Origin: Gammaproteobacteria bacterium
GTDB taxonomy: Bacteria > Pseudomonadota > Gammaproteobacteria > GCA-001735895
Assembly: GCA_030066335.1 (NCBI GenBank)
Contig: JASJBV010000002.1
Span: 1 to 35,983, forward strand
Reading direction: 5' to 3'
Length of the DNA stretch: 35,983 nt
Both the position numbers and the translations under genes were made by a program. How positions within the stretch are numbered: position 1 is the first letter of the stretch; every line of letters starts with the position of its first letter. Below, one piece after another: positions 2,157 to 16,978 of the stretch. A model generated the notes under the pieces. It was not told the DNA's origin, searched no databases, and worked only from the letters and a program-made list of their open reading frames with translations.

Positions 2157-3482
2157 TCAGGCCTGTTTCAGGTTTTGCGGCATTTCCAGGGCTGCGGTTT
2201 TGCTGTCCGGGAAACTGACCACGATGCGGGTGCCCTTGCCCAACTCACTGGTTACCTCGATCGGCCAGTTGAAGCGCTCAGACAGGCGTTTGACGATGGT
2301 CAGGCCGATGCCATAGCCGGAAGCATTGACATTTTCCCCGCGCTGGAACGGCTTGAACATCTCCTCGATCTGCTGCTGCGGCATGCCTTTGCCAGAATCC
2401 TGGATGATGACGGTGTTATCCCGCAGCTCGATCTGGATACTGCCCTGCTCGGTATACAACATCGCGTTACGCACCAGGTTACCCAGCAGCACCGACAACA
2501 CCATGTCGGAACCCCAGGTCTGGATCTTGTTGCTGGCATGATAACGGATGTCCAGGCGCGGATTCTTGTTCAACAGGCGAGCGCGTTCAACCTCTTCTTC
2601 AACCACGTCATTCAGCACCACCATGTCCTTGGTCAGGGCCTCGTTGTTTTCCCGCGCCAGCATCAGAAAGACCTCGGTGAGGCGTTCCATATCGGCAATC
2701 GCCCGTTTGATCCTGGTGACCGAGTTGTACGCGGGCTTGGATAACTCCTGCTCACTGAGCAACATATCCGAGGCGATACTGATCACGGTCAGCGGGCTGC
2801 GAAGTTCGTGGCTGGCATCCCGGGTGAAGTTACGCTCCCTGGCGATGAACGCATCGAGTCTCTCACCCAGGTGGGAAATCGCGTCGGCCAGGACTTCGAT
2901 TTCGTCATCGGTGTCGAAGCCCAGTTCATCGATCTCGATCATCAGGTCATTCTGACTGAAATCTACCTGGTTGATCTGCTTGGCCAGCTGGATGATCGGC
3001 GATACCGTGCGATGGCTCAAACGATAGGTCAGCCACAGGGCAAGGTAGAGGATCAACAGCACGGTCAGCAATGGCACCAGGCCGTAGTACAACACCAATG
3101 CATCCACCTGGCCACGGTAGTAAAGCAGGTACAGCAAGCGATCTTCCTGCTCATCCAGATACAACACCAGGCCATCACCGCCATTGGCAAATTCATAAAA
3201 ACCCGGTTTTGTCGGAATCCCCTGCTGCTGAATCAGTTCGGGTAGTCCGGATGGGTCGAAGTAACCGGTCAGGTTGTTGGTATCCGGTAACGGAAATTCG
3301 GTATCCTGACGGTATTGCTGCCAGAAGTACTCTTTTTCATCGAGAATCGCGCTCTTGACCAGGATCTCTTCGATCACGATCTTGGCAAAAAACACACCGA
3401 GAATCGCCGCCAGCGCAATCAATAATCCCTGGAACAGGAATGCCCGGGTAATCTTGTTGAGTATGCCGTTGGTCTTAGACAT
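2157..3482 (-). CDS. sensor histidine kinase
   Basis: Predicted to autophosphorylate on His and pass phosphate to the response regulator encoded just upstream. The 441-residue protein has a membrane segment near 14-36, a periplasmic sensor of about 95 residues and a second membrane segment near 133-154. A HAMP-like linker follows, then a HisKA domain with the H-box HELRSPLTV (phospho-accepting His225). The ATPase domain shows an N-box LLGNLVRNA (332-340), G1 DSGKGM and G2 GYGIGL. The chosen ATG at 3482 overlaps the regulator stop by 8 nt (ATGTCTAA) behind a GGAG-like site; a longer start at 3512 is possible. The sensor matches no ligand family I can name. Confidence 0.9.
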   Translation of the reverse strand: MSKTNGILNKITRAFLFQGLLIALAAILGVFFAKIVIEEILVKSAILDEKEYFWQQYRQDTEFPLPDTNNLTGYFDPSGLPELIQQQGIPTKPGFYEFANGGDGLVLYLDEQEDRLLYLLYYRGQVDALVLYYGLVPLLTVLLILYLALWLTYRLSHRTVSPIIQLAKQINQVDFSQNDLMIEIDELGFDTDDEIEVLADAISHLGERLDAFIARERNFTRDASHELRSPLTVISIASDMLLSEQELSKPAYNSVTRIKRAIADMERLTEVFLMLARENNEALTKDMVVLNDVVEEEVERARLLNKNPRLDIRYHASNKIQTWGSDMVLSVLLGNLVRNAMLYTEQGSIQIELRDNTVIIQDSGKGMPQQQIEEMFKPFQRGENVNASGYGIGLTIVKRLSERFNWPIEVTSELGKGTRIVVSFPDSKTAALEMPQNLKQA

Positions 3483-4194
3483 CTTGCTCCGCATCCACCA
3501 TCTTGTAACCACTGCCCTGAATCGTATGCAGCAATTGCTTGTCGAACGGCTTATCGATGATCTTTCTCAGGTTATACAAATGGCTGCGCAGGGTATCGCT
3601 GTCGGGCAGGATATCGCCCCACACCTTGCGTTCCAGCTCACTGCGCGTGACCACGGCAGGTGATGCGCGCATCAACACGGTCAGAATCTTGAGCCCAATC
3701 GGGGTCACATTCAACGCGACGCCGTTACGCTCCACCTTGAGGGTCGAGGTGTCCACGGTCAGATCACCCACGCTAAGCACATCGCGGGTCATTTCACCTC
3801 GACTGCGGCGGATCAGTGATAGCACCCGCGCTTCCAGCTCTTTAATCGCGAACGGCTTGACCAGGTAATCATCGGCGCCGGTATCGAGCCCGGTGAGCTT
3901 GTCATCCAGGGTATCCCGCGCGGTCAGCATGATGATCGGCGTATCATTGCGGGCATCCTGGCGGATTTTCTGACATACGCTGAGACCGTCCATACCCGGC
4001 AACATCAGATCGAGCACGATCGCATCATACTGATTGCTCACGGCGAGATGCAATCCGGTCACTCCATCCGCGGCATAATCAACACTGAAACCACGGTTCT
4101 CCAGGTAGGCAGTCACCATTTCCGCGATGTCGGTGTGATCCTCTATCAGCAATACGCTCGATTCCGGTTTCATACGCTTAACAACCTTCAACAT
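3475..4194 (-). CDS. OmpR-family DNA-binding response regulator
   Basis: Receiver domain plus C-terminal winged helix, 239 residues from the ATG at 4194. The acidic pocket (LLIEDHTD), the phosphorylated Asp62 in IVLDLMLPGMDG, MLTARD and the LVKPF lysine are all visible. The effector ends with a typical RSHLYNLRKIID recognition region. AGGAAG lies 11 nt before this ATG; a TTG at 4200 sits closer (5 nt) and is an alternative start. It is translationally coupled to the kinase downstream. OmpR-type regulators bind direct repeats with about 11-bp spacing, and such repeats occur in this window at 5873-5916 and 13204-13247. Whether this regulator binds them is only an inference. Confidence 0.92.
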   Translation of the reverse strand: MLKVVKRMKPESSVLLIEDHTDIAEMVTAYLENRGFSVDYAADGVTGLHLAVSNQYDAIVLDLMLPGMDGLSVCQKIRQDARNDTPIIMLTARDTLDDKLTGLDTGADDYLVKPFAIKELEARVLSLIRRSRGEMTRDVLSVGDLTVDTSTLKVERNGVALNVTPIGLKILTVLMRASPAVVTRSELERKVWGDILPDSDTLRSHLYNLRKIIDKPFDKQLLHTIQGSGYKMVDAEQDV

Positions 4195-4292
4195 ATCCAA
4201 TTAATCTTCCTGTAGATACTACCTCAAAACCAACCTATCAACATTGTTTGCCGCCAAGGTGGTTGCTGGACATTAACTTCATGGTCAGCATG

Positions 4293-4724
4293 TCAGTTCC
4301 CCTGGCCGCTGATGAACAAAGTGTTCAGTAACAACAGAAAAACCACCATGCTGGTCAGCTGGATGCGCATTTTCTGAAACCAGCTGATGGCGAGATATTG
4401 CCGATAATCGAAAATCATCACCACGATGAAGCCTGCCGCCAGCAGGGGAATAGCCATCAGCGGCGGTAACAGCAGGCAACCACTGGCAAACAGGGAGGGC
4501 AACACCGACATCGTCAGTAAAGTGCCATCGCCGCTGTGCATCGCCCGCCCCCAGTGAATCGCGCCGACAAAGGTCAGGATCACGGCGGCGTAGGCTTTAA
4601 CGAAGTCGATGGCCAACAGCTTATGGTTATCCGCAATGACAAAGGCACTGGCCAACAGCAACGGGGTGACCCCGAGGTAACCCAGCCACAACACATGCCG
4701 TTTGATATCGCCAACTGCCTGCAT
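4293..4724 (-). CDS. DUF3429 inner-membrane protein
   Basis: A 143-residue, strongly hydrophobic protein with about four or five membrane segments. The segment LGYLGVTPLLLASAFVIA followed by AYAAVILTFVGAIHWG is characteristic of DUF3429 proteins. These are uncharacterised inner-membrane proteins of Proteobacteria, usually 140-160 residues long. It starts 2 nt after the glutathione-peroxidase stop codon, so the two are almost certainly co-transcribed. No catalytic residues are evident and no function can be proposed. Confidence 0.8.
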   Translation of the reverse strand: MQAVGDIKRHVLWLGYLGVTPLLLASAFVIADNHKLLAIDFVKAYAAVILTFVGAIHWGRAMHSGDGTLLTMSVLPSLFASGCLLLPPLMAIPLLAAGFIVVMIFDYRQYLAISWFQKMRIQLTSMVVFLLLLNTLFISGQGN

Positions 4725-4726
4725 GC

Positions 4727-5311
4727 TTACAATACGCTCTCGATCGCCTCGATAATCTTGCGTCCCTGTGGGTTAGTGGAGCTGCCGAAACTACCGACCA
4801 ATTTGCCATCGCGGTCCAGCAGGTACTTATGAAAATTCCATCTCGGCTCGGTACCAGCAGCCTGGGCCAGCGCCTTATAGAAGGGATCGGCATCCTGTCC
4901 GCGGACCCGAGTTTTGGCATACATCGGAAAGCGTACACCGTAGGTCAGACGACAGAAGCTCTTGATCGAACCCTCGCTGCCTGGTTCCTGGTTGCCAAAA
5001 TCGTTGGATGGAAATCCGGCGATTTCCAGGCCCTGATCACGGTATTGCGCGTACAACTGTTCGAGGTCGGCGTACTGGTCGGTGAAACCACAACGGCTGG
5101 CCGTATTGACCACCAGCAGCACCTTGCCGCGGTAGGCCTGACAGATGTTTTCTGTCTGTTCACTGTCCAGCCGACGCACATTGAAATCCTGGTTATCGGC
5201 ACACACCTGCGGGCCCTGGCTGCCGGCCATGGCTGGCCTGAACAACAGAAACAGCAACACGAGGGATACGGTTACCGGCATTAATAAAAATTTGGCATCT
5301 CTGGGTTTCAT
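4727..5311 (-). CDS. exported glutathione peroxidase-family protein
   Basis: Thioredoxin-fold peroxidase of 194 residues that should reduce hydrogen or lipid hydroperoxides using thiols. Residues 8-29 form a signal peptide or anchor ending FRPAMAG, so it probably acts in the periplasm. The peroxidatic Cys74 lies in NTASRCGFTDQY. The tetrad partners are seen as Gln108 (PSNDFGNQEPGS) and Trp158-Asn159 (RWNFHKYLL). FC120...YGVRFPMY matches bacterial members. Extra Cys37 and Cys57 lie in the mature N-terminus and could form a disulfide. It is followed closely by DUF3429 and preceded by two small genes, with a common start region behind an 11-bp repeat array. The native reductant cannot be decided from sequence. 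Confidence 0.9.
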   Translation of the reverse strand: MKPRDAKFLLMPVTVSLVLLFLLFRPAMAGSQGPQVCADNQDFNVRRLDSEQTENICQAYRGKVLLVVNTASRCGFTDQYADLEQLYAQYRDQGLEIAGFPSNDFGNQEPGSEGSIKSFCRLTYGVRFPMYAKTRVRGQDADPFYKALAQAAGTEPRWNFHKYLLDRDGKLVGSFGSSTNPQGRKIIEAIESVL

Positions 5312-5336: not shown

Positions 5337-5561
5337 TTAACTGACGGCGACCCTGGCGGATGATTCCGTCAGGCTGTCGCCAAGCAGTGACTGCATGCCT
5401 ATGCCTCTATGCAATAACATATTCATGTATTTCACCTTGTTTGCTTCGTTTTCAAAATAGATCTTCAATGCATGAGAGCCTTCACCGTCGACCACGTAAG
5501 GGGCGCTGTCGGTATCGGTCACGTCTTTCATCGAGATTGGATCCAGGGTTGAAATCAACAT
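5337..5561 (-). CDS. small protein of unknown function, 74 aa
   Basis: A short gene with a near-perfect Shine-Dalgarno (GGAGGAGATATT then ATG), which argues that it is expressed. The protein is acidic at the N-terminus. It holds an ordered-looking core with KDVTDTDSAPYVVDGEG followed by ALKIYFENEANK, then a Met-rich and Leu-rich end. There are no cysteines, signal peptide or membrane segment. The core gives the impression of a conserved small-protein family, but I cannot name it. It lies between the 54-residue gene and glutathione peroxidase on the same strand, 25 nt before the peroxidase start. No adjacent modifying enzyme supports a peptide-precursor role. Confidence 0.75.
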   Translation of the reverse strand: MLISTLDPISMKDVTDTDSAPYVVDGEGSHALKIYFENEANKVKYMNMLLHRGIGMQSLLGDSLTESSARVAVS

Positions 5562-5648: not shown

Positions 5649-5813
5649 CTAGATATCATCGATATCCTCGGTCGTCGGATTATTGATGATGTCGTGCAAA
5701 CGACTGCCGGGCACCACGGAGAAAAGGATCTCGGGATCAAGCTCCTCGATCTCTTCCAGCATGCGGTCGTAATCTAATTCGATTTCATGTAGCTGTTGTT
5801 CAAACTGGGACAT
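5649..5813 (-). CDS. small acidic protein of unknown function, 54 aa
   Basis: A 54-codon frame with a strong site (AGGAGAACCGTT then ATG). The sequence begins MSQFEQQLHEIELDYDR, is very rich in Glu and Asp, and has a predicted helical first half (LDYDRMLEEIEELDPEIL). It ends NNPTTEDIDDI. No cysteine, signal peptide or membrane segment is present. It is the first gene of the minus-strand group that continues with the 74-residue protein, glutathione peroxidase and DUF3429. It starts 59 nt from an array of four 11-bp direct repeats. The ribosome-binding site and position make a real gene likely; the role is unknown. Confidence 0.65.
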   Translation of the reverse strand: MSQFEQQLHEIELDYDRMLEEIEELDPEILFSVVPGSRLHDIINNPTTEDIDDI

Positions 5814-5872
5814 AACGGTTCTCCTGGTTGCGCAGTGCGCTTATTTGGGTCAAAACATTGCATAACGGGAAG

Positions 5873-7686: not shown

Positions 7687-8205
7687 CTAGTCCTTTTCAA
7701 TCCACAGGGTGACTTCGCCGACCTTGAAACCCCATTTCTTCATCTTTGCCCGGTTGATCAGGCGGTTCTCATCCATCAGGTACATCCAGTCATCAAAATC
7801 GATATCCCAGGTTTTACCATCTACCGTAATCGTCAGTGTGTAACGCCAGTTCAGGGCATAGCCACTGGTTTGACCCTTGGCAGGATTGACCACGTCACTG
7901 GCGGTACCGCCGTAAATACCATCTGCATGTTTTTCCAGGTACCAGGTGCGCCGCTGTTCCTCGCCATCGTCATAGTAAAACATTTCATCCAGCACGCCCT
8001 TGTTGCCTTCCCAATTGCCGACCATGTCGACTTTGAATCGCCGTAATACCTTGCCGCTGCGATTTTGCACCATGCCGTAGGCGGTAAGCTTACCGTTGTA
8101 AAACTCTTCCAGCTTCAGCTCGGGACTGGTGTTCTGGTAATAACTCATCGGGGTAGCGCAACCGACCAGCAGCAACAGGAAGGGCCAGATCCAGTTACGC
8201 ATCAT
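7687..8205 (-). CDS. DUF3833 lipoprotein
   Basis: Lipoprotein of 172 residues. The start at 8205 (ATGATG) overlaps the stop of the preceding gene by 11 nt, which suggests coupling; an upstream extension in the same frame lies inside that gene and is rejected. A short signal peptide ends in the lipobox LLVGCATP with Cys16. The mature part shows LEEFYNGKLTAYGMVQNRSGKV and a C-terminal DFDDWMYLMDENRLINRA, which is the DUF3833 pattern. Family members accompany SDR/FAD-oxidase/CFA gene groups in Proteobacteria and are uncharacterised. It probably sits at a membrane facing the periplasm and may bind a lipid or lipid product; that role is inference. Confidence 0.88.
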   Translation of the reverse strand: MMRNWIWPFLLLLVGCATPMSYYQNTSPELKLEEFYNGKLTAYGMVQNRSGKVLRRFKVDMVGNWEGNKGVLDEMFYYDDGEEQRRTWYLEKHADGIYGGTASDVVNPAKGQTSGYALNWRYTLTITVDGKTWDIDFDDWMYLMDENRLINRAKMKKWGFKVGEVTLWIEKD

Positions 8206-8686
8206 ACTCGCCGAGCAACTGCATGCGCAGCTTCGGTTTGCGGGTTTTGTCGGACAGCCATATGGCGAGAAAAGCCGGGGCAAATTCTGCATCCTGGATC
8301 TCGCCGATCAAATCGTCGTTAAAGAAAAACTGGCTGATACCTTGGTCATTGACATGTAACAACAGCTCATCACCCGGCGTGACCGATGGCCAGATATCTT
8401 GCAGTTGCTCGCGCCATTGCGGTTTCCAGTCGACATCGATGCGTTGCCACTCTTTGACCGTGGTTTCGACCAACATTTCAGCCTCGATATCCCGCGCGTA
8501 TTCGATCGCCAGGGCAATCGGATAACCGCTGTCCTGGTAACGCCCACTGCCACTGAGCAGGGTGATGTCGTAGACTTTCCAGAACATCCAGTTCAATTCG
8601 CTCTGGCCAACGACGGACAAGGTTGCAACCGGACTGGCCATCACCGGTAAACCGATAAACCAACAGATCAATAATAGCTTTTTCAT
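8195..8686 (-). CDS. chalcone-isomerase-like periplasmic protein
   Basis: 163 residues from the ATG at 8686, which overlaps the DUF2878 stop as ATGA with GGGTGAGA before it. A signal peptide ends near PVMA (residue ~17). The mature domain begins VATLSVVGQSELNWMFWKVYDITLLSGSGRY, the hallmark of the bacterial chalcone isomerase-like family. A conserved ALAIEYARDI and a GDELLLHV hairpin follow. Bacterial members lack demonstrated chalcone isomerase activity; fatty-acid binding is known for related folds. Its place next to a CFA-like enzyme and DUF3833 fits lipid handling in the periplasm, but this is inference. Confidence 0.88.
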   Translation of the reverse strand: MKKLLLICWFIGLPVMASPVATLSVVGQSELNWMFWKVYDITLLSGSGRYQDSGYPIALAIEYARDIEAEMLVETTVKEWQRIDVDWKPQWREQLQDIWPSVTPGDELLLHVNDQGISQFFFNDDLIGEIQDAEFAPAFLAIWLSDKTRKPKLRMQLLGEYDA

Positions 8687-9168
8687 GTTCTCACCCTTAT
8701 CTTGTAGTCCAGCTGTACCAGCAGCGGTAACATAATCGCCCATAGGATGGCCAGGGTGGCAATCGTCCAGGTCAGGCCCATCGGCAATTCAACCGCCTCT
8801 AACTTCCAACCCGCCAGGTAAGAGGCGGTACCGGCCACCGCACCGATCGGTACCAGCACAAACCATGGCAGTTTGCGTAACCAGATCATGCTGTGGCCCA
8901 GGGTCAGGACAAAGCCTATCCAAATTAAACCCAGCCACAGCGGCAGGGTTTCGAAGACAAAAATCCCACTCAAGGTCAGAGTCGCGTCGACTGTGATGCC
9001 GATCAATGCAATAGGGATCACGCGCCAGTCAGTGCCGCGACTGGGGGTAAAAATAAAATGGGCGGCAATCAGCAGTAGCGACAGCATGATCCATTCGTTG
9101 CGTCCGATGACGGCGCTGAACCATAGAATTTGAAACGCAATCAGCTGTGCCCAGAACCATTTAGACAT
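8683..9168 (-). CDS. DUF2878 inner-membrane protein
   Basis: A 161-residue integral membrane protein with about five or six hydrophobic segments and a tryptophan-rich N-terminus (MSKWFWAQLIAFQILWFSAV). GITVDATLTLSGIF, LPLWLGLIWIGFVLTLGHSM and a long alanine/glycine-rich segment agree with DUF2878 (YbfB-like small membrane proteins). The ATG at 9168 lies inside the end of the CFA-like gene (28-nt overlap) behind GGAGCGAG. It overlaps the next gene by 4 nt. The function is unknown; the operon suggests a partner in membrane-lipid modification. Confidence 0.85.
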   Translation of the reverse strand: MSKWFWAQLIAFQILWFSAVIGRNEWIMLSLLLIAAHFIFTPSRGTDWRVIPIALIGITVDATLTLSGIFVFETLPLWLGLIWIGFVLTLGHSMIWLRKLPWFVLVPIGAVAGTASYLAGWKLEAVELPMGLTWTIATLAILWAIMLPLLVQLDYKIRVRT

Positions 9169-10391
9169 ATTCTCGCTCCTGGCTTGGCGGCTTCGAAGTG
9201 GACCAGACCGATAGTGCCTTCCCTGAATCCACCTTCACAATAGGCCAGGTAAAAATCCCACAGACGTTGGAAATCCATGTCATAACCCATCTCCACTAAC
9301 TGGCTGGTAGCCTCGTGAAAACGCTCGGTCCAGTCGGTTATGGTCTGGGCATAGTGATGTCCGTAATCGGTCAATCGGGTCACCGTCATCGAGGTTTGTT
9401 TTTTCAGATGCTTGGTCATCTCGCTGACCGATGGCAGGCAGCCTCCCGGGAAAATATAACGCTGGATGAAGTCAACGCTCTTGCGATACTGATCGTATCT
9501 CTGGTCAGAGATGGTAATGGCCTGGATCAGCATGCGGCCATCGTCTTTCAACAGCTGCTCCAGCTTCTTGAAATATCCTGGAAAAAATTGATGGCCGACG
9601 GCTTCGATCATCTCCACCGATACCAGTTTGTCGTACTGGCCCTCGAGGTCGCGATAATCCTGCAGCAACAGGGTAACTCTGTCCTCCAGGCCCTGTTGCT
9701 CGACCTGTTGCTGGGTGTAGTTGAACTGTTGTTGCGACAGAGTGGTCGTGGTCACCCGGCAACCGTAGTGTTTCGCTGCATAGCAGGCCAGTCCGCCCCA
9801 ACCGGTACCGATCTCGATCAGGTGATCCTCGGGATTTAACTCCAGCTGGTCACAGATTCTTTTCAGCTTGAATTCCTGCGCCTCGACCAGGCTTGCCTCC
9901 GGGCTTGGGTAGATCGCCGACGAATACTGCATGTGTGGATCCAGCATCAGCTGGTACATATCGTTACCGAGATCGTAATGCGCGGCGATGTTAGAACGAC
10001 TGCCTTCACGGGTATTCTTGTTCAACACATGGGATATTTTATGCCAGGGATAAGTGATCCAACCCAAACGCTTTTCCAGTTTCTCCAGGGTTGCCATGTT
10101 CCTGCAGAAAACCCTGATCACCGCGGTCAGGTCCGGGGTTTCCCAGTCACCTTCCACATAAGCTTCGGCATAGCCGACACTACCGCCGCTGAGCACGCGA
10201 GTATATAGACGACTGTCGTTGACCTTTACCACGGCCTGCAGAGACGCATCTTTATCGCCAAAGAAATATCTTTGCGAACGCTCTTCGACGGTAATGCCAC
10301 AATCTTTCAGGCCCTTGAACAAGGCAAAAACGAGTTTCCTCGACAGTTGTTCGATAATCCCGGATTGTTGATTGGTTATGATGGATTCCAT
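9141..10391 (-). CDS. cyclopropane-fatty-acyl-phospholipid synthase family methyltransferase
   Basis: Predicted to transfer a methyl group from SAM to the double bond of unsaturated phospholipid acyl chains. At 416 residues it has the usual family length. The N-terminal lipid-binding part carries VLSGGSVGYAEAYVEGDW. The catalytic part has HYDLGNDMYQLMLD (138-151), motif I LIEIGTGWGGLA (191-202), SVEMIEAVGHQFF (258-270) and YIFPGGCLPS. It is the fourth gene of an operon with SDR, FAD-oxidoreductase and DUF1365 genes, a set that in other bacteria belongs to singlet-oxygen or light-stress regulons. The product could be a cyclopropane, methyl-branched or furan fatty acid; sequence alone does not decide. 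Confidence 0.92.
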   Translation of the reverse strand: MESIITNQQSGIIEQLSRKLVFALFKGLKDCGITVEERSQRYFFGDKDASLQAVVKVNDSRLYTRVLSGGSVGYAEAYVEGDWETPDLTAVIRVFCRNMATLEKLEKRLGWITYPWHKISHVLNKNTREGSRSNIAAHYDLGNDMYQLMLDPHMQYSSAIYPSPEASLVEAQEFKLKRICDQLELNPEDHLIEIGTGWGGLACYAAKHYGCRVTTTTLSQQQFNYTQQQVEQQGLEDRVTLLLQDYRDLEGQYDKLVSVEMIEAVGHQFFPGYFKKLEQLLKDDGRMLIQAITISDQRYDQYRKSVDFIQRYIFPGGCLPSVSEMTKHLKKQTSMTVTRLTDYGHHYAQTITDWTERFHEATSQLVEMGYDMDFQRLWDFYLAYCEGGFREGTIGLVHFEAAKPGARICLNGSGHS

Positions 10392-10400
10392 GGTTAACTC

Positions 10401-11150
10401 CTATGGATGAGAATGATATGGAACTTTTTTTATGAACAGTTTCAATGCCTGCCAGTAAATACCCTTCAATATGGTCAGGGTCATCACCGGCCACTGCTTC
10501 AACACTGACCATAGCGAGGTACTGGTTAGCGCGTGCTGCTGTACCGACAAGGTTGCGTCGAATAATTTATCCTGTTGCCAGTTCTCTATGTGCACCAGGA
10601 TATGCTCATCGCTGTGCTCGATCCGCCAGTGGTATTGCATATCCATGCCCATGAACGGGGACACATGAAAATCCTTTTTCGTCTGTTGCGGATTTTCCAC
10701 GTCGACCAGGTAACAGTGACGTTCATTCCACGGCGTGTTGTGCACCTCGGCCAGCATGTACCTGGGCTTACCCTGCTGGTAACAGAAGAAGAAGTTGACC
10801 GGACTGAAATAAATGCCGAAACAGCGTACCTGGCCCAGTAACAGGACGGACTCGATGATGCTGTTGTCACCGCCCAGCTGCGCGACTTTTTCCAGTACCG
10901 CCTGCTTCAGGGAAAGCTCGTTATCGTCAAGGTAATCACAACGGCGGAAACTCAACGCGGCGAAACGGTTGGCGCCGAAGAAACGCAGGTTCTGATCCAG
11001 CGTATCCAGCTCATCCAGGTCCAGGCCGAGCATGTACATCGGGTAACTGAAACCATGCTCGGTTGGCGAGTAACGCATGTGATGGACCTTGCCGATGTAT
11101 ACAGCACTGTTCCAGGCAACACTTTCCGCACCAGCGACCATGGTATTCAT
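10401..11150 (-). CDS. DUF1365 protein
   Basis: A 249-residue protein with the DUF1365 signature SAVYIGKVHHMRYSPTEHGFSYPMYMLGLDLDEL, RFFGANRFAALSFRRCDY and a middle SPVNFFFCY. A later HVSPFMGMDMQYHWRIE is also typical. The ATG at 11150 overlaps the stop of the FAD-oxidoreductase gene as ATGA with GGAG before it. DUF1365 genes are almost always linked to an FAD amine-oxidase-like gene and a CFA-like gene, exactly as here. The family is uncharacterised biochemically, and a role in modified fatty-acid synthesis is inferred from linkage. Some relatives are fused to the methyltransferase partner. Confidence 0.9.
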   Translation of the reverse strand: MNTMVAGAESVAWNSAVYIGKVHHMRYSPTEHGFSYPMYMLGLDLDELDTLDQNLRFFGANRFAALSFRRCDYLDDNELSLKQAVLEKVAQLGGDNSIIESVLLLGQVRCFGIYFSPVNFFFCYQQGKPRYMLAEVHNTPWNERHCYLVDVENPQQTKKDFHVSPFMGMDMQYHWRIEHSDEHILVHIENWQQDKLFDATLSVQQHALTSTSLWSVLKQWPVMTLTILKGIYWQALKLFIKKVPYHSHP

Positions 11151-12394
11151 AAGGAAACTCCAAATCGTGCACAAACATCGAGAGCACTTTTTACCCCATC
11201 TTCATGGAAGCCGTTATACCAGTAGGCGCCGCAGAAGTGGGTGTGGTTCTTACCGCAAATCAGGTCCCGGTTTTGTTGCGCCGTAACCGTGCCGGGCTCG
11301 TATACCGGATGGGCATAGCGGAACTCGCCCAGGACCTGGTCCGGATCTATCGCCGAACTGCGGTTCAGGGTAACACAGAATGTTTCATCCGCAGCAAGCC
11401 CCTGCAGGATATTCATGTTGTAAGTGACCGCGGGTGCAGAATCATGGGATTGTCCCTGCCAGAAATTCCAGCTCGCCCAGGCTTTCGGTTGATCGGGCAG
11501 CAGGTTACGGTCGGTATGTAATACCACCTCGTTTTCGCGGTATTTGATCCCGCTCAAGACCTGCTGCTCATCGTCACTGATGTCCTTCAACAAGCGCAGT
11601 GACTGATCCGAATGACAGGCCAGGATTACCTCGTCAAATGTCCTGGAACCATCGGCGCTGTGCACCTCAACGCCCTCGGCGTTGCGCTCGACAGCTGATA
11701 CTGCACAGTCCAGCTTGATCTCCTGTACCGCTGCGGTCAGGGCCGGGATATAAGACCTGGAACCGCCCTTGATAACATACCACTGCGGTCGATCCACGAT
11801 ATTGAGCAGGCCATGGTTTTTGAAGAAGCGCAAAAACAATCCGAGCGGAAATTCACGCGCATCATCGATCGATGCCGACCAGATCGCGGCAACCATCGGC
11901 AGGATATAATGTTCGGCGAAGAAATCGGAAAACCTGTGCTGATCGAGGAAATCACCCAGGGTTAGATCACTTTGCGCGCTTTGCTCCTTTAACAACTGCT
12001 TGCTTGCTTTGTTGAAGCGGACGATATCATAGATGAACTTGTAGAAACGTGGACTGACCAGGTTCTTGCGCTGGGCAAACATCGTGGACAGGCTGTGGCC
12101 GTTATATTCGATACCGCTTTGCAGGTGTTGCACGCTGAAACTCATCTCGGTTTCCTGCTTGTCGATACCGGTTTTATCCAGCAGCTTGAGAAAGTTCGGG
12201 TAAGTCCAGTCATTGAACACGATAAACCCGGTATCAATGGCGTAATCTTTTTCGTTCACGGTCACATCGACGGTCGCGGTATGACCGCCGAGTACCGGGT
12301 TGGCCTCGTACAGGCAGACATGGTGATCCTGGCTGAGCAGATAAGCTGAGGTCAGGCCGGATATACCACTACCGATGACGGCAATCTGTTTCAC
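11147..12394 (-). CDS. FAD-dependent amine-oxidase-like oxidoreductase
   Basis: 415 residues starting at a GTG (12394) that overlaps the SDR stop as GTGA, with GGAG spaced before it. The dinucleotide-binding loop AVIGSGISGLTSAYLL (FAD) and the motif YEANPVLGGHTATVDV are clear, followed by DTGFIVFNDWTYPNFLKLLD. The C-terminal half contains the ACHSDQSLRLL segment common to this oxidase/desaturase-like group. It probably oxidises or desaturates a membrane acyl chain. Related proteins paired with CFA-like enzymes take part in making furan fatty acids in alphaproteobacteria. That functional link is by family and context, not shown by this sequence. Confidence 0.9.
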   Translation of the reverse strand: MKQIAVIGSGISGLTSAYLLSQDHHVCLYEANPVLGGHTATVDVTVNEKDYAIDTGFIVFNDWTYPNFLKLLDKTGIDKQETEMSFSVQHLQSGIEYNGHSLSTMFAQRKNLVSPRFYKFIYDIVRFNKASKQLLKEQSAQSDLTLGDFLDQHRFSDFFAEHYILPMVAAIWSASIDDAREFPLGLFLRFFKNHGLLNIVDRPQWYVIKGGSRSYIPALTAAVQEIKLDCAVSAVERNAEGVEVHSADGSRTFDEVILACHSDQSLRLLKDISDDEQQVLSGIKYRENEVVLHTDRNLLPDQPKAWASWNFWQGQSHDSAPAVTYNMNILQGLAADETFCVTLNRSSAIDPDQVLGEFRYAHPVYEPGTVTAQQNRDLICGKNHTHFCGAYWYNGFHEDGVKSALDVCARFGVSL

Positions 12395-13119
12395 GCAGCA
12401 CTCCGCGCCATCGATACCGCTATACGGTGCCAAAGTGAATGCGGCAGCCAGGATAACAATCGCATCACGGCGATAAACACAAACGGGAAATTGATCTCTT
12501 TCTTCTTTTTTTCCAGGCCGGTGCGAATGATATTACTTGCCTCTTTCACCCCGATCCGGCCCGGCATCGGAAAATCGTTGAGCTGGGTCAGCGGCGTATC
12601 GACAAACCCCGGGCGGATCAGCGACAGGCTGATGCCCTGATGGTCAAGGTCTACTGCCAGGGTGCGGGTCAGGTAATCCAGCGCCGCCTTGGAAGCCCCG
12701 TAGGCCTCGGCCCGGGTCAATGGCAGAAAGGTCACCGAGGAACTGACGATGGCCAGCTGGCTGCCCTCGCTCATGTTCGGCAATAACGCGGCCAGGCAAT
12801 TGACGGTACCCATAACATTGGTCGAGAACACCCGGTCGAACAACTCGGCGTCGAACTGCTTTGCGTCATCGATGTATTCACAACTGCCTGCATTGAGAAT
12901 GACCAGCTCCAGGTCGTCGACATCGGCCAGCGCCAGCCGGGTCTGTTCGCGGTCATTGGTATCAAAGCTGCGGTAGTCGTAATGGCTGGAATCCGATAGC
13001 TGACGCAGTCTTTCTTGATTACGGCCGCAGGCCACGACTGACCAGCCCTGCTCGAGGTAGTCCAGGCTGAGTTGTTTACCTATGCCGGACGATGCGCCGG
13101 TAATCAGTACCCGTTTCAT
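12391..13119 (-). CDS. short-chain dehydrogenase/reductase
   Basis: Classical SDR of 242 residues. The NAD(P)-binding TGASSGIG lies at 7-14, NAG at 76-78, the catalytic Ser near 127-128 and Tyr140/Lys144 in YGASK. The C-terminal tail is basic and hydrophobic (EKKKKEINFPFVFIAVMRLLSWLP), suggesting membrane association, which fits a lipid substrate. It is the first gene of the eight-gene lipid operon. The promoter region upstream holds four 11-bp direct repeats. Gly-Arg after beta2 (ACGRNQERL) suggests NADPH preference. The substrate is unknown. Confidence 0.92.
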   Translation of the reverse strand: MKRVLITGASSGIGKQLSLDYLEQGWSVVACGRNQERLRQLSDSSHYDYRSFDTNDREQTRLALADVDDLELVILNAGSCEYIDDAKQFDAELFDRVFSTNVMGTVNCLAALLPNMSEGSQLAIVSSSVTFLPLTRAEAYGASKAALDYLTRTLAVDLDHQGISLSLIRPGFVDTPLTQLNDFPMPGRIGVKEASNIIRTGLEKKKKEINFPFVFIAVMRLLSWLPHSLWHRIAVSMARSAA

Positions 13120-13203
13120 GATCAGATGGTCTCCCGAAAGAAATGATTGCCGGTTGATGATTGCGATCCGGCATAAAACATGGACATAACCTAGAAGACA
13201 GAT

Positions 13204-13247
13204 CGTGAAAGCCCTGTCAAAACCATGTGAAAATTATGTGAAATTAC
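13204..13247. promoter_or_regulatory. four 11-bp direct repeats, candidate OmpR/PhoB-type operator (site B)
   Basis: Plus-strand 11-mers are CGTGAAAGCCC, TGTCAAAACCA, TGTGAAAATTA and TGTGAAATTAC. Read on the minus strand they give TTTCACA-like blocks 11 bp apart ending 84 nt from the SDR start codon. The last two units are nearly identical to those of site A. The only genes around are on the minus strand, so the SDR operon is the probable target. A TTGACA occurs within the third repeat on the minus strand, so a bound regulator could sit over the -35 region. Confidence 0.6.
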
Positions 13248-13709: not shown

Positions 13710-15109
13710 TAGGCAACCTCCGGATTCTTGGTGGATTGAAACATGCGCAGGGTTTTTTCCCGCGCCTCCTTGTGCACCACAATTGGCGCAGGATAACTAT
13801 GACCGAGTTCCTGTTCCGCCAGCCACTGCTGCGGGCTATGAATATCAGCATCCGGCACCGATGCTAATTCAGGTACCCAGGCCCGGATGAATTCACCCTG
13901 CTTGTCATAACGTTCGCCCTGTACCGTTGGGTTGAAGATTCGAAAATAGGGTGCCGCGTCGGCACCGGTACTGGCCGCCCATTGCCAACCACCATTATTG
14001 GATGCGAAATCCGCATCGATCAGCTGTGCCATGAAATAGTCTTCACCCCAGCGCCAATCGATTTGTAAATCCTTGACCAGGAAACTGGCGACGATCATGC
14101 GTAAGCGGTTATGCATCCAGCCGGTCTGATTGAGACAGCGCATCGCCGCATCGATGATGGGGTAACCGGTCTGGCCATCACACCAGGCCTGGAATTGGGA
14201 TTTATCCTGCGACCACTTGATAAGTCGGGTTTCCAGCTTGAATGGCTGGTGCATGCTGAGCCTGGGATAGGCCACCATCAGATGTCGATAAAATTCGCGC
14301 CAGATCAGTTCGTTGAACCAGGCAAAGCCCTGTTCCCCTGGACTGAGTGGTAGGTAACCCAATTGCTGCTCAATCGCCTGCAGGCACTGGGCGGTGGACA
14401 GTACCCCAGCCGCCAGATAGGGTGACAGGGAACTGGTGGCAGGCAAGGCCGGAAAGTCCCGGAGTTCTTTATAGTCGAGCAGATGTTCCCGGCAAAACTG
14501 CTGCAGCCGCTGCTGGGCGGCGTACTCACCTGCCGGCCAGGGTGAATCTTTATCGACATTGCCGTCGTCACCAGACGTTGGTGGATGATCCGAGTCAGGT
14601 GCCGGCAACAGCTTGTAGCCATGTTCCTTGAAATATTTTATCCAGGCGTTCCTGAACGGCGTAAACACCTTGTACATTTCACCGTTGCCGGTGACCAGGT
14701 TACCCGGTGACACGATACAATCCGCCTCGAACATGCTGAATTTCGCCTCGATGGCATCCCTGACCGCCCGGTCCCGGCGCAGCTCATTGATCCCGGTCTC
14801 GCGGTTGGCGAATAAGGCGTCAATCTGTTGCTGCTGACAAAAATCCAGCATCAGTTCGGGGATGTCATTAAACGAAGCACATTCGAGCCGATGCAGATGG
14901 ATATCGATGGCCTGGAGGGCTTGCGCCAATGCCTGCAGATTCTGTTGGATAAATGCCAACTGGCGCGAGCCCAGTCCATGTTGTTGCCACTGACCGGGGC
15001 AATCGATATGAATGGCCACGACCTCATCTCCGGTGGCCAGCGCACGCTGCAAGGCGGGATTATGGGTTAATCTCAGATCGGTTCTAAACCAGACCAAATG
15101 ACGCTTCAT
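13709..15109 (-). CDS. phrB: deoxyribodipyrimidine photo-lyase (CPD photolyase)
   Basis: Light-driven repair of cyclobutane pyrimidine dimers. 466 residues, the normal length of class I photolyases. The N-terminal antenna domain begins MKRHLVWFRTDLRLTHNPAL. The FAD-binding domain has WFNELIWREFYRHLM, WCDGQTGYPIIDAAMRCLNQTGWMHNR and LRMIVASFLVKDL. The tail DFASNNGGWQWAASTGADAAPYFRIFNP is diagnostic. The ATG at 15109 lies within the end of the MerR-family gene (26-nt overlap) and has GAGG before it. It is translated from the operon starting at 16875, whose promoter carries TGTACAAG-type repeats and whose second gene is a LitR/CarH-like regulator. Confidence 0.95.
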   Translation of the reverse strand: MKRHLVWFRTDLRLTHNPALQRALATGDEVVAIHIDCPGQWQQHGLGSRQLAFIQQNLQALAQALQAIDIHLHRLECASFNDIPELMLDFCQQQQIDALFANRETGINELRRDRAVRDAIEAKFSMFEADCIVSPGNLVTGNGEMYKVFTPFRNAWIKYFKEHGYKLLPAPDSDHPPTSGDDGNVDKDSPWPAGEYAAQQRLQQFCREHLLDYKELRDFPALPATSSLSPYLAAGVLSTAQCLQAIEQQLGYLPLSPGEQGFAWFNELIWREFYRHLMVAYPRLSMHQPFKLETRLIKWSQDKSQFQAWCDGQTGYPIIDAAMRCLNQTGWMHNRLRMIVASFLVKDLQIDWRWGEDYFMAQLIDADFASNNGGWQWAASTGADAAPYFRIFNPTVQGERYDKQGEFIRAWVPELASVPDADIHSPQQWLAEQELGHSYPAPIVVHKEAREKTLRMFQSTKNPEVA

Positions 15110-15929
15110 GTTGCCTCACCAATTGGGTAACAGATGGATGATAAGGATGGTCGAGCCAGCCCATGTCGAAATAAACATTACCGATATCACCGCAGAAAAA
15201 ACTGTTGTCGGGCCATACCGTTTGATACTTGTTGAACCAGGATTCGGTCAGGCCGGCGCCGAGCAAGACCAGGTAAGCATCGACGCTCAAGCGATCCTGA
15301 ATCAGCGGTAATTGAGTCGGCTCGATCTGGCCAAGATCCAGGCTGCGACATTCAACCCCCTGCAATTCATAGCGCGTCAACAGGCTATCCAGGGCCGAAA
15401 CCTTGCCGCAGCGCATGACTGCAATCATCGGACCGCTATGAATTGACAACCAGTGGATAAGCAGTTGTTGCAGCAGTCCATGACCGCTTTGTTCGATGAC
15501 CGCGCGATCGGGGCGCTCGAGCTGGCTTAACTGTAATAACCAGGGGCGGATGACATGCCCCAGTAACAGGTCTACCGGGTACAGTTTGGATAACTCTCGC
15601 AGCCGGCTCTCCAGCCCCGCCAGGTTCAACTGTTGCGCCAGCTCGATTAATTCGAGATTGATCTGTTCCCAGTTGGAACCCGTGGATTCGGTAGTTGCTG
15701 TCTGCAGCAGCGACTTGACCTGGCCAATACTGACCCCTTTTTCCAGCCAGTTCAGCACCTGCTGAATGGTGGCTATATCCTGCTCGGAATAAAGTCTATG
15801 TCCGCTGTCGGTACGGGCCGGTTTGATCAGACCATAACGCCGTTGCCAGGCGCGCAAAGTCACCGGATTGACCCCGGTCTTCTGCGATACCTCCCTGATC
15901 GGATACATAGTCGCTGGATCAGAGGGCAT
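15084..15929 (-). CDS. MerR-family regulator, LitR/CarH-like without visible cobalamin motif
   Basis: The N-terminal MerR winged helix MYPIREVSQKTGVNPVTLRAWQRRYGLI matches regulators of the LitR/CarH/CarA group, as do HRLYSEQDI and the LNWLEKGVSIGQVKSLL wing. Residues ~80-160 form a helical bundle, and the C-terminal ~120 residues have a Rossmann-like pattern. The DxHxxG cobalamin-binding motif of light-sensing CarH is not seen, so B12-based light sensing is doubtful. Position before phrB matches light-stress operons elsewhere. The start is uncertain: ATG at 15929 overlaps the upstream stop by 11 nt, while ATG at 15908 would begin MYPIREVS as in relatives. It is a probable repressor of its own operon. 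Confidence 0.85.
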   Translation of the reverse strand: MPSDPATMYPIREVSQKTGVNPVTLRAWQRRYGLIKPARTDSGHRLYSEQDIATIQQVLNWLEKGVSIGQVKSLLQTATTESTGSNWEQINLELIELAQQLNLAGLESRLRELSKLYPVDLLLGHVIRPWLLQLSQLERPDRAVIEQSGHGLLQQLLIHWLSIHSGPMIAVMRCGKVSALDSLLTRYELQGVECRSLDLGQIEPTQLPLIQDRLSVDAYLVLLGAGLTESWFNKYQTVWPDNSFFCGDIGNVYFDMGWLDHPYHPSVTQLVRQHEASFGLV

Positions 15930-16875
15930 AACGTAAGGCCAGCTCCGGTGGATGCGGATCGAGGTATTTCTGTTGGGCGATATAGTCGTTTGGATATTCT
16001 TCCTGGTAATGTCGCAACAGGGTAATCGGGGCCATCAACGGCAACTCGCCACGCCGGTAACGCTCGATCACCGAGGCCAGTTCCTGGCGTTGGCGGGAAT
16101 TCAGCTGATCCTTGAAATAGCCCTGGATGTGCTGCAGGACATTGCATTGTTGACGGCGACTGGCGACTTTTTTCAACGCCCGCATGAAAGCGCCAATATA
16201 TTCATCGGCCTTGCGCTCAAGGTCAGTGGAAAGATCCGCTAACAATTGGCCGAGATCGGAATAAGTCTGGGGATGGTGGGCCATCAGCATGAATTTGTAT
16301 CGACTGTGGAAATCGATCAGGCGGGCCGCGCTGAGCCCTTGATGCAGCAGGCACTGCCAGTCGTGATAGGCATACAGACGGGTAATGAAATTTTCCCGCA
16401 GTTCCTGGTCGTTGAGTCGACCGTTCTCTTCCAGCGGCAGGTTGGGGTGAAGATTGATCAGCTCGGCAGCATACAGGCCGATGCCGGTGCGTTTGCAGGA
16501 CTGACCGGATGGGGTGTAAATCCGTACCCGCTCCATGCCGCAGCTGGGAGATTTTGCGCACAGGATGTAACCGCTCAGATAATCTAAACCCGAGGCGGTA
16601 TCGCGGGAAAATGACTGCATTGATTCAGTAACGTCCTTGCCATCGGCACTGACCGCGCGTATTTCGTTTTCCTCGTCACCGACCAGGCGGATCGAAGCCC
16701 GCGGGGCGTCCAGACCGATCCCCATCTCGGGACATACCGGGACAAAACGGACATGCTTACTCAGGATATCGGCACTGAAATGATGGCGTTTATGGCCGCC
16801 GTCAAAACGCACCTCCTGTCCCAACAGGCAACTGCTGATGCCGACCTGGATGACTTCAGGATCAAACTTATACAT
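15919..16875 (-). CDS. DUF523 and DUF1722 domain protein (YbgA-like)
   Basis: 318 residues. The N-terminal DUF523 part has VGISSCLLGQEVRFDGGHK, FVPVCPEMGIGL and CAKSPSCGMERVRIY, with conserved cysteines that could bind metal or a cofactor. The C-terminal DUF1722 part has FHSRYKFMLMAHHPQTYSDLG and ends ELALRYAL. The fusion is common in Gammaproteobacteria, next to photolyase and a MerR regulator, and remains uncharacterised. It starts the operon, with a GAGG ribosome-binding site in front of the ATG at 16875. The promoter with TGTACAAG-type repeats lies 42-69 bases upstream. Confidence 0.92.
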   Translation of the reverse strand: MYKFDPEVIQVGISSCLLGQEVRFDGGHKRHHFSADILSKHVRFVPVCPEMGIGLDAPRASIRLVGDEENEIRAVSADGKDVTESMQSFSRDTASGLDYLSGYILCAKSPSCGMERVRIYTPSGQSCKRTGIGLYAAELINLHPNLPLEENGRLNDQELRENFITRLYAYHDWQCLLHQGLSAARLIDFHSRYKFMLMAHHPQTYSDLGQLLADLSTDLERKADEYIGAFMRALKKVASRRQQCNVLQHIQGYFKDQLNSRQRQELASVIERYRRGELPLMAPITLLRHYQEEYPNDYIAQQKYLDPHPPELALRYAL

Positions 16876-16887
16876 TGTTCAGCCTCT

Positions 16888-16978
16888 TGTACAATTTGTG
16901 CCACAGCCTAGATCAAGTTATACAAGAATGCAACAGCTGTACAAGTTTTAATCGTCCAGATATATCTGGTTGCACAAG
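16888..16978. promoter_or_regulatory. TGTACAAG-type operator array before the photolyase operon
   Basis: Four related octamers occur on the plus strand: TGTACAAT (16888-16895, within the palindrome TTGTACAA), TATACAAG (16919-16926), TGTACAAG (16938-16945) and TGCACAAG (16971-16978). The second and third overlap the predicted -10 and -35 boxes. LitR/CarH-type MerR regulators bind TGTACA-containing sites, so autorepression by the product of the second operon gene is the obvious hypothesis. Confidence 0.6.
16917..16944 (-). promoter_or_regulatory. sigma70-type promoter of the DUF523-merR-phrB operon
   Basis: On the minus strand a TTGTAC -35 box (16939-16944) is followed by 16 bp and a TATAAC -10 box (16917-16922). 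The start codon is 42 nt further on. Both boxes overlap TGTACAAG-type repeats, the usual layout for repression. Confidence 0.55.

Follow-up and report, generated by a model that had tools for sequence, protein, structure and literature searches.

A run of membrane-lipid genes that begins behind a row of short direct repeats raises the question of which protein reads these repeats, and of which other genes are governed by the same protein. The window analysed here, a stretch of 35,983 nucleotides from a Gammaproteobacteria bacterium, holds two such arrays, both directed toward genes on the minus strand. The array before the lipid genes (site B, 13204-13247) reads CGTGAAAGCCC TGTCAAAACCA TGTGAAAATTA TGTGAAATTAC on the plus strand and GTAATTTCACA TAATTTTCACA TGGTTTTGACA GGGCTTTCACG on the minus strand, in the sense of the genes downstream. 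In gene direction the natural unit is TTTCACA-N4, a 7-bp word followed by a 4-bp spacer with a period of 11 bp, and the four words of site B lie at 13237-13243, 13226-13232, 13215-13221 and 13204-13210, the third being TTTGACA, as unit 3 of the arrays frequently is. Over the 4 x 7 word positions, site B matches 27 of the 28 consensus bases; the highest-scoring of 1000 windows simulated under a first-order Markov model reached 21. The first-pass annotation had described tandem 11-bp repeats oriented to minus-strand genes at this place, and the sequence is as described. It had also called site B the same four-unit array as site A (5916 to 5873 on the minus strand: AGAATTTCACA TTATTTTCACA CCGACTTCACG GTCAGTTGACG), which holds for the intact units 1 and 2, whereas the third and fourth units of site A are degenerate, keeping 5/7 and 4/7 consensus bases (23/28 overall).

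Site B is flanked on one side by a SnoaL-like gene and on the other by a minus-strand run that opens with an SDR oxidoreductase (12391-13119, PF00106) and continues with a FAD-dependent, amine oxidase-like oxidoreductase (11147-12433, PF01593), a UfaO-like DUF1365 protein (10401-11174, PF07103), a cyclopropane-fatty-acid synthase (CFA)-like SAM methyltransferase (9141-10391, PF02353), a DUF2878 membrane protein (8683-9168), a chalcone isomerase-like protein (8195-8743, PF16036) and a DUF3833 lipoprotein-like protein (7687-8292). The unit behind site A, also on the minus strand, encodes two small proteins without a Pfam match, of 54 aa (5649-5813) and 74 aa (5337-5561), a glutathione peroxidase (GPx; 4727-5311, PF00255) that is likely periplasmic judging from its hydrophobic N-terminus, a DUF3429 membrane protein (4293-4724), a response regulator (RR; 3475-4200) and a membrane sensor histidine kinase (HK; 2157-3512); operon membership is read throughout from gene spacing only. 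Both the receiver domain (PF00072) and the Trans_reg_C domain (PF00486) of the RR score over threshold, which places it in the OmpR/PhoB family, and against the PhoB equivalog model it reaches 182.8 bits, below the cut-off of 296.2. The HK carries hydrophobic stretches on either side of a segment in which no sensor domain was recognised, and the nature of the target genes alone suggests photo-oxidative or lipid-peroxide stress as its stimulus. Upstream of site B are genes for a photolyase, a MerR regulator and RudS, an s4U desulfidase (PMC11417400).

The promoter architecture around the arrays is informative about the class of regulator. At site B a sigma70-like -10 hexamer, TAGGTT (13188-13193, minus strand), starts exactly 10 nt past unit 4, and no -35 element is present at normal spacing from it. 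Site A likewise has a sigma70-like hexamer, TGCAAT (5857-5862, minus strand), which together with units 3 and 4 makes up the weak parts of that site. When 34 arrays from the window and its relatives were aligned, having been scored without use of the -10, the sixth base of the hexamer (position 55) was T in all 34, the first base T in 28 and the second base A in 29; TAnnnT stood at offset 10 in 24 of the 34 and at any other offset in at most three, and no TTGACA-like -35 was found in these arrays with a spacer of 14-20 bp. Unit 3 shows a preference of its own for TTGACA or TTGACG (G in 17/34 arrays), which places a -35-like hexamer at a distance of 21 bp from the -10; a classical sigma70 promoter with this word as its -35 was considered and rejected on account of the 21-bp spacing. 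What the arrays resemble are pho boxes, in which tandem 7-bp words with 4-bp spacers substitute for the -35 beside a sigma70 -10 (PMC4971064), and the corresponding arrangement, an array in place of the -35 at a fixed distance from the -10, is what is found here. An array in this place implies an OmpR/PhoB-type activator and argues for activation rather than repression.

Genome-wide pattern searches, on which the following counts rest, returned seven four-unit sites in the window's own genome and, when 11 relatives are counted as well, about 40 across the 12 genomes, with no match to a reversed control pattern in the same 12; these counts, together with the simulation scores, rule out chance repeats. 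Besides sites A and B, arrays in the window's genome precede folX-folE-folM and genes for a dienelactone hydrolase, a Mut7-C protein, a DCC1-like thiol oxidoreductase and a DUF6134 protein, a list that represents a minimum because this genome is 82% complete. Among the relatives, arrays stand before the orthologues of the SDR gene in G003 (62% identity), of the GPx gene in G005 (52% identity) and of the 54-aa gene in G002 and G007, and before the lipid operon in G196 and G306; other targets include folX or folM and genes for fasciclin-domain and DUF4397 proteins. These orthologous arrays favour the earlier proposal that the glutathione peroxidase and the lipid operon would belong to one regulon. 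The units are conserved between close relatives while most of the spacers drift, so that the repeats do not vary freely; free variation is what the first-pass annotation had named as evidence against its reading. As side observations, genes for fasciclin-domain lipoproteins are recurrent array targets (L078, L141, L142 and L331), one lying directly before the RR gene in G196, and DUF4397 genes recur in the same way in G018, G031 and G004.

Which regulator goes with the arrays can be addressed from their distribution. The array with its -10 is present in eight of the nine genomes, the window's own included, whose RR is at least 70% identical to that of the window, and in none of the 86 other genomes searched, the reversed control again giving none; the ninth genome (G031) has the array under a looser pattern. 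The co-occurrence has a Fisher p of about 7e-11, a value that is overstated since the congeners are not independent. Four congeners (G002, G004, G005 and G007) have the array 100-160 bp upstream of the RR gene, and in G018 the gene behind the array encodes a DUF4397 protein and the RR gene comes next. When 369 genomes from across the class were scanned, nine outside the family had a match, and in five of these nine (G117, G133, G196, where it occurs twice, G306 and G337) the array is no more than 2 kb away from an RR homologue of 50-75% identity. The order in G196 and G306 is RR, HK, array, chalcone isomerase-like protein, DUF3833 and SDR, and in G196 the stretch goes on with the FAD oxidoreductase, DUF1365 and CFA genes. 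As the neighbouring genes differ among several of the families, shared descent of one locus cannot explain all of these associations. The association has exceptions: G114, G124 and G288 encode RR homologues of 52-56% identity but yielded no array, the array-bearing G253 encodes no RR above 45% identity, and none of the arrays of G014 is near its RR. The earlier suggestion that the two-component system next to site A is a candidate regulator of both operons thus gains from an array that co-occurs with the RR and adjoins it in several families, as far as genome comparison can indicate.

The array, the register of its -10, its conservation, the co-occurrence and linkage with the RR and the absence of an ECF-ChrR pair, discussed below, are direct observations, and their best explanation as a whole, held with considerable confidence, is that site B serves as an operator at which the RR would activate one photo-oxidative or lipid-peroxide regulon made of genes formerly under ECF-ChrR. 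The partner kinase is encoded beside the RR in the site-A operon. Once phosphorylated, the RR is predicted to bind the four 11-bp units head-to-tail, probably as two dimers, to take the place of the missing -35 and to recruit sigma70 RNA polymerase to the -10 situated 10 nt downstream. It would thereby switch on the SDR-FAD-DUF1365-CFA membrane-lipid operon. Through the array at site A it would also turn on the operon of the small proteins, GPx and the RR-HK pair itself, amounting to positive autoregulation, and folX-folE-folM and several other units would come under the same array. Protection against photo-oxidative or lipid-peroxide damage is the presumed purpose of such a regulon. In the window's genus, the two-component system would have taken over genes that are run by an ECF sigma factor and ChrR in sister genera.

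Two other candidates, the MerR/LitR gene and the ECF-ChrR background, had no part in the reasoning of the first-pass annotation and were both examined in the present analysis. It is conceivable that the arrays act as operators for the MerR/LitR-like regulator (15084-15929, minus strand; no recognised B12-binding domain), which would then repress the lipid operon in the dark. Its gene adjoins site B within the photolyase-rudS cluster, and 11-bp direct repeats can be bound by CarH/LitR-type proteins. In Pseudomonas, class II LitR controls similar light genes, and its published sites are TGTACA-N12-TGTACA (PMC9758184), as against the word TTTCACA of the arrays. Sites of the TTGTACA type, different from the arrays, do occur in the window at 16888-16944 (minus strand), before the regulator's own cluster of rudS, merR, photolyase and SnoaL genes. 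Moreover, the arrays do not follow the LitR-like gene: G005, G014 and G018 have arrays with only weak, HTH-level MerR matches, and in G006, where a LitR-like gene adjoins the lipid genes, there is neither an RR above 43% identity nor an array. On operator type and co-occurrence, the MerR/LitR-like protein is rejected as the array-binding factor, and its control of the lipid operon is considered improbable; we judge that it acts on the rudS-merR-phr-SnoaL unit. Upstream of rudS, at 16870-16960, TTGTACA and TTGTATA words overlap a plausible -35/-10 pair (TTGCAT-N17-TAGGCT), and this stretch is probably the operator of the LitR-like regulator itself.

Could a ChrR-type ECF sigma factor still drive the lipid operon, with the repeats incidental? 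In a sister genus, genes for an ECF sigma factor and ChrR are neighbours of the same lipid cluster, and the promoters there are divergent and of the form TGATCC-N16-CGTA, resembling those of RpoE2-ChrR in Shewanella. This motif is present at the ECF-ChrR locus in five of five sister-genus genomes read; ChrR and the ECF sigma factor are encoded in G014, G018 and G031. The same gene set is also an ECF-ChrR target in Shewanella, where the RpoE2-ChrR regulon includes a photolyase-cfa operon and a periplasmic glutathione peroxidase (PMC4336711), and UfaO, which carries DUF1365, belongs with a furan fatty acid pathway linked to ChrR (PMC7380195). Against this, the eight genomes of the window's genus (G000-G007) yielded neither a ChrR above cut-off nor a close homologue of that sigma factor, with completeness of 82% for the window's own assembly and 95-100% for G003, G004 and G007, and there is no TGATCC-N16-CGTA near the window's lipid operon. 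With both the regulator pair and its promoter missing, ECF-ChrR control of this operon is ruled out for practical purposes and scarcely credible. A third reading, in which another regulator owns the arrays and travels with the RR-HK genes by chance, draws on the large distance between array and RR in G159, G361 and G253 and on the fact that binding of the array by the RR is a prediction. It is nevertheless unlikely, as array and RR are physically linked repeatedly, in several families and in several of them among different neighbours, and 11-bp direct repeats fit an OmpR/PhoB-type DNA-binding domain well. The RR as activator at site B is the reading retained here.

How this activator came to its targets is suggested by the promoters of the two-component genes themselves. 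In all three sister-genus genomes that carry the RR (L084, L085 and L087), its gene has TGATCC-N16/17-CGTA about 100 bp upstream and no array at the promoter; in the window's genus, the position about as far upstream is occupied by an array. A takeover of regulator is likely because the window's genus is without the ECF-ChrR pair. It is somewhat probable that the two-component system, once itself an ECF-ChrR target, captured the regulon, with ECF and ChrR being lost, arrays replacing the TGATCC/CGTA promoters and the RR promoter becoming self-activating. A plausible order would place the two-component system under ECF-ChrR at the outset, with the loss of ECF-ChrR and the capture of its targets thereafter.

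Several known systems are close to this arrangement. Like PhoB-dependent promoters, the arrays have an 11-bp period, substitute for the -35 and go with an RR built of a receiver and a winged-helix domain; they differ in the word TTTCACA and in having four units against the basic two, while the RR scores under the cut-off of the PhoB equivalog model and its putative targets are photo-oxidative and lipid genes. With the RpoE2-ChrR systems of Shewanella and Rhodobacter there is an overlapping target set (photolyase, cfa, GPx and DUF1365), whereas a two-component system and sigma70-type promoters are found here and ECF, ChrR and the TGATCC/CGTA promoter are absent. Class II LitR/CarH of Pseudomonas overlaps in its targets (photolyase, rudS and folate/pterin genes), and the window encodes a LitR-like protein, yet the operators are of different types and the arrays do not go with the LitR-like gene from genome to genome. 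In the blue-light response of Vibrio cholerae, ChrR and MerR share photo-oxidative genes that include CFA synthase (PMC5241685); there an ECF-ChrR system partners MerR, and in the window the two-component system appears to hold that place. The RR-HK pair thus seems to run light- and oxidation-protection genes for which other bacteria use a sigma factor with ChrR, or LitR.

In the literature searched, no description of a two-component regulator of this gene set was found, and a regulator, together with its operator and a list of targets, can now be proposed for a system otherwise undescribed there. Genes for furan and cyclopropane lipids, glutathione peroxidase and tetrahydromonapterin would thereby be placed under one switch. 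If the takeover is true, a membrane histidine kinase would constitute a new route by which photo-oxidative or lipid-peroxide damage is sensed. The locus would also offer a rare case in which a swap of regulators is readable from promoters, so that how regulons change masters becomes directly testable.

Some further sites lie at greater distance. Among 80 named RR loci, L152, L165 and L174 are the only ones to hold array-like sites. In L152, from a Xanthomonadales MAG, a TTTCACA array (3362-3401) lies between the HK and a DUF2878 gene, with a FolE-like gene further on, and the region upstream of the RR gene (1150-1400) contains TTGTACA-N4-TTGTACA, a LitR-like word with an 11-bp period. The array-like sites of L165 (at 8003) and L174 (at 8417), both from Nitrosomonadales, have an A....T -10 in register and lie near RR homologues of 50% identity; they may indicate that the system extends outside the window's nearer relatives.
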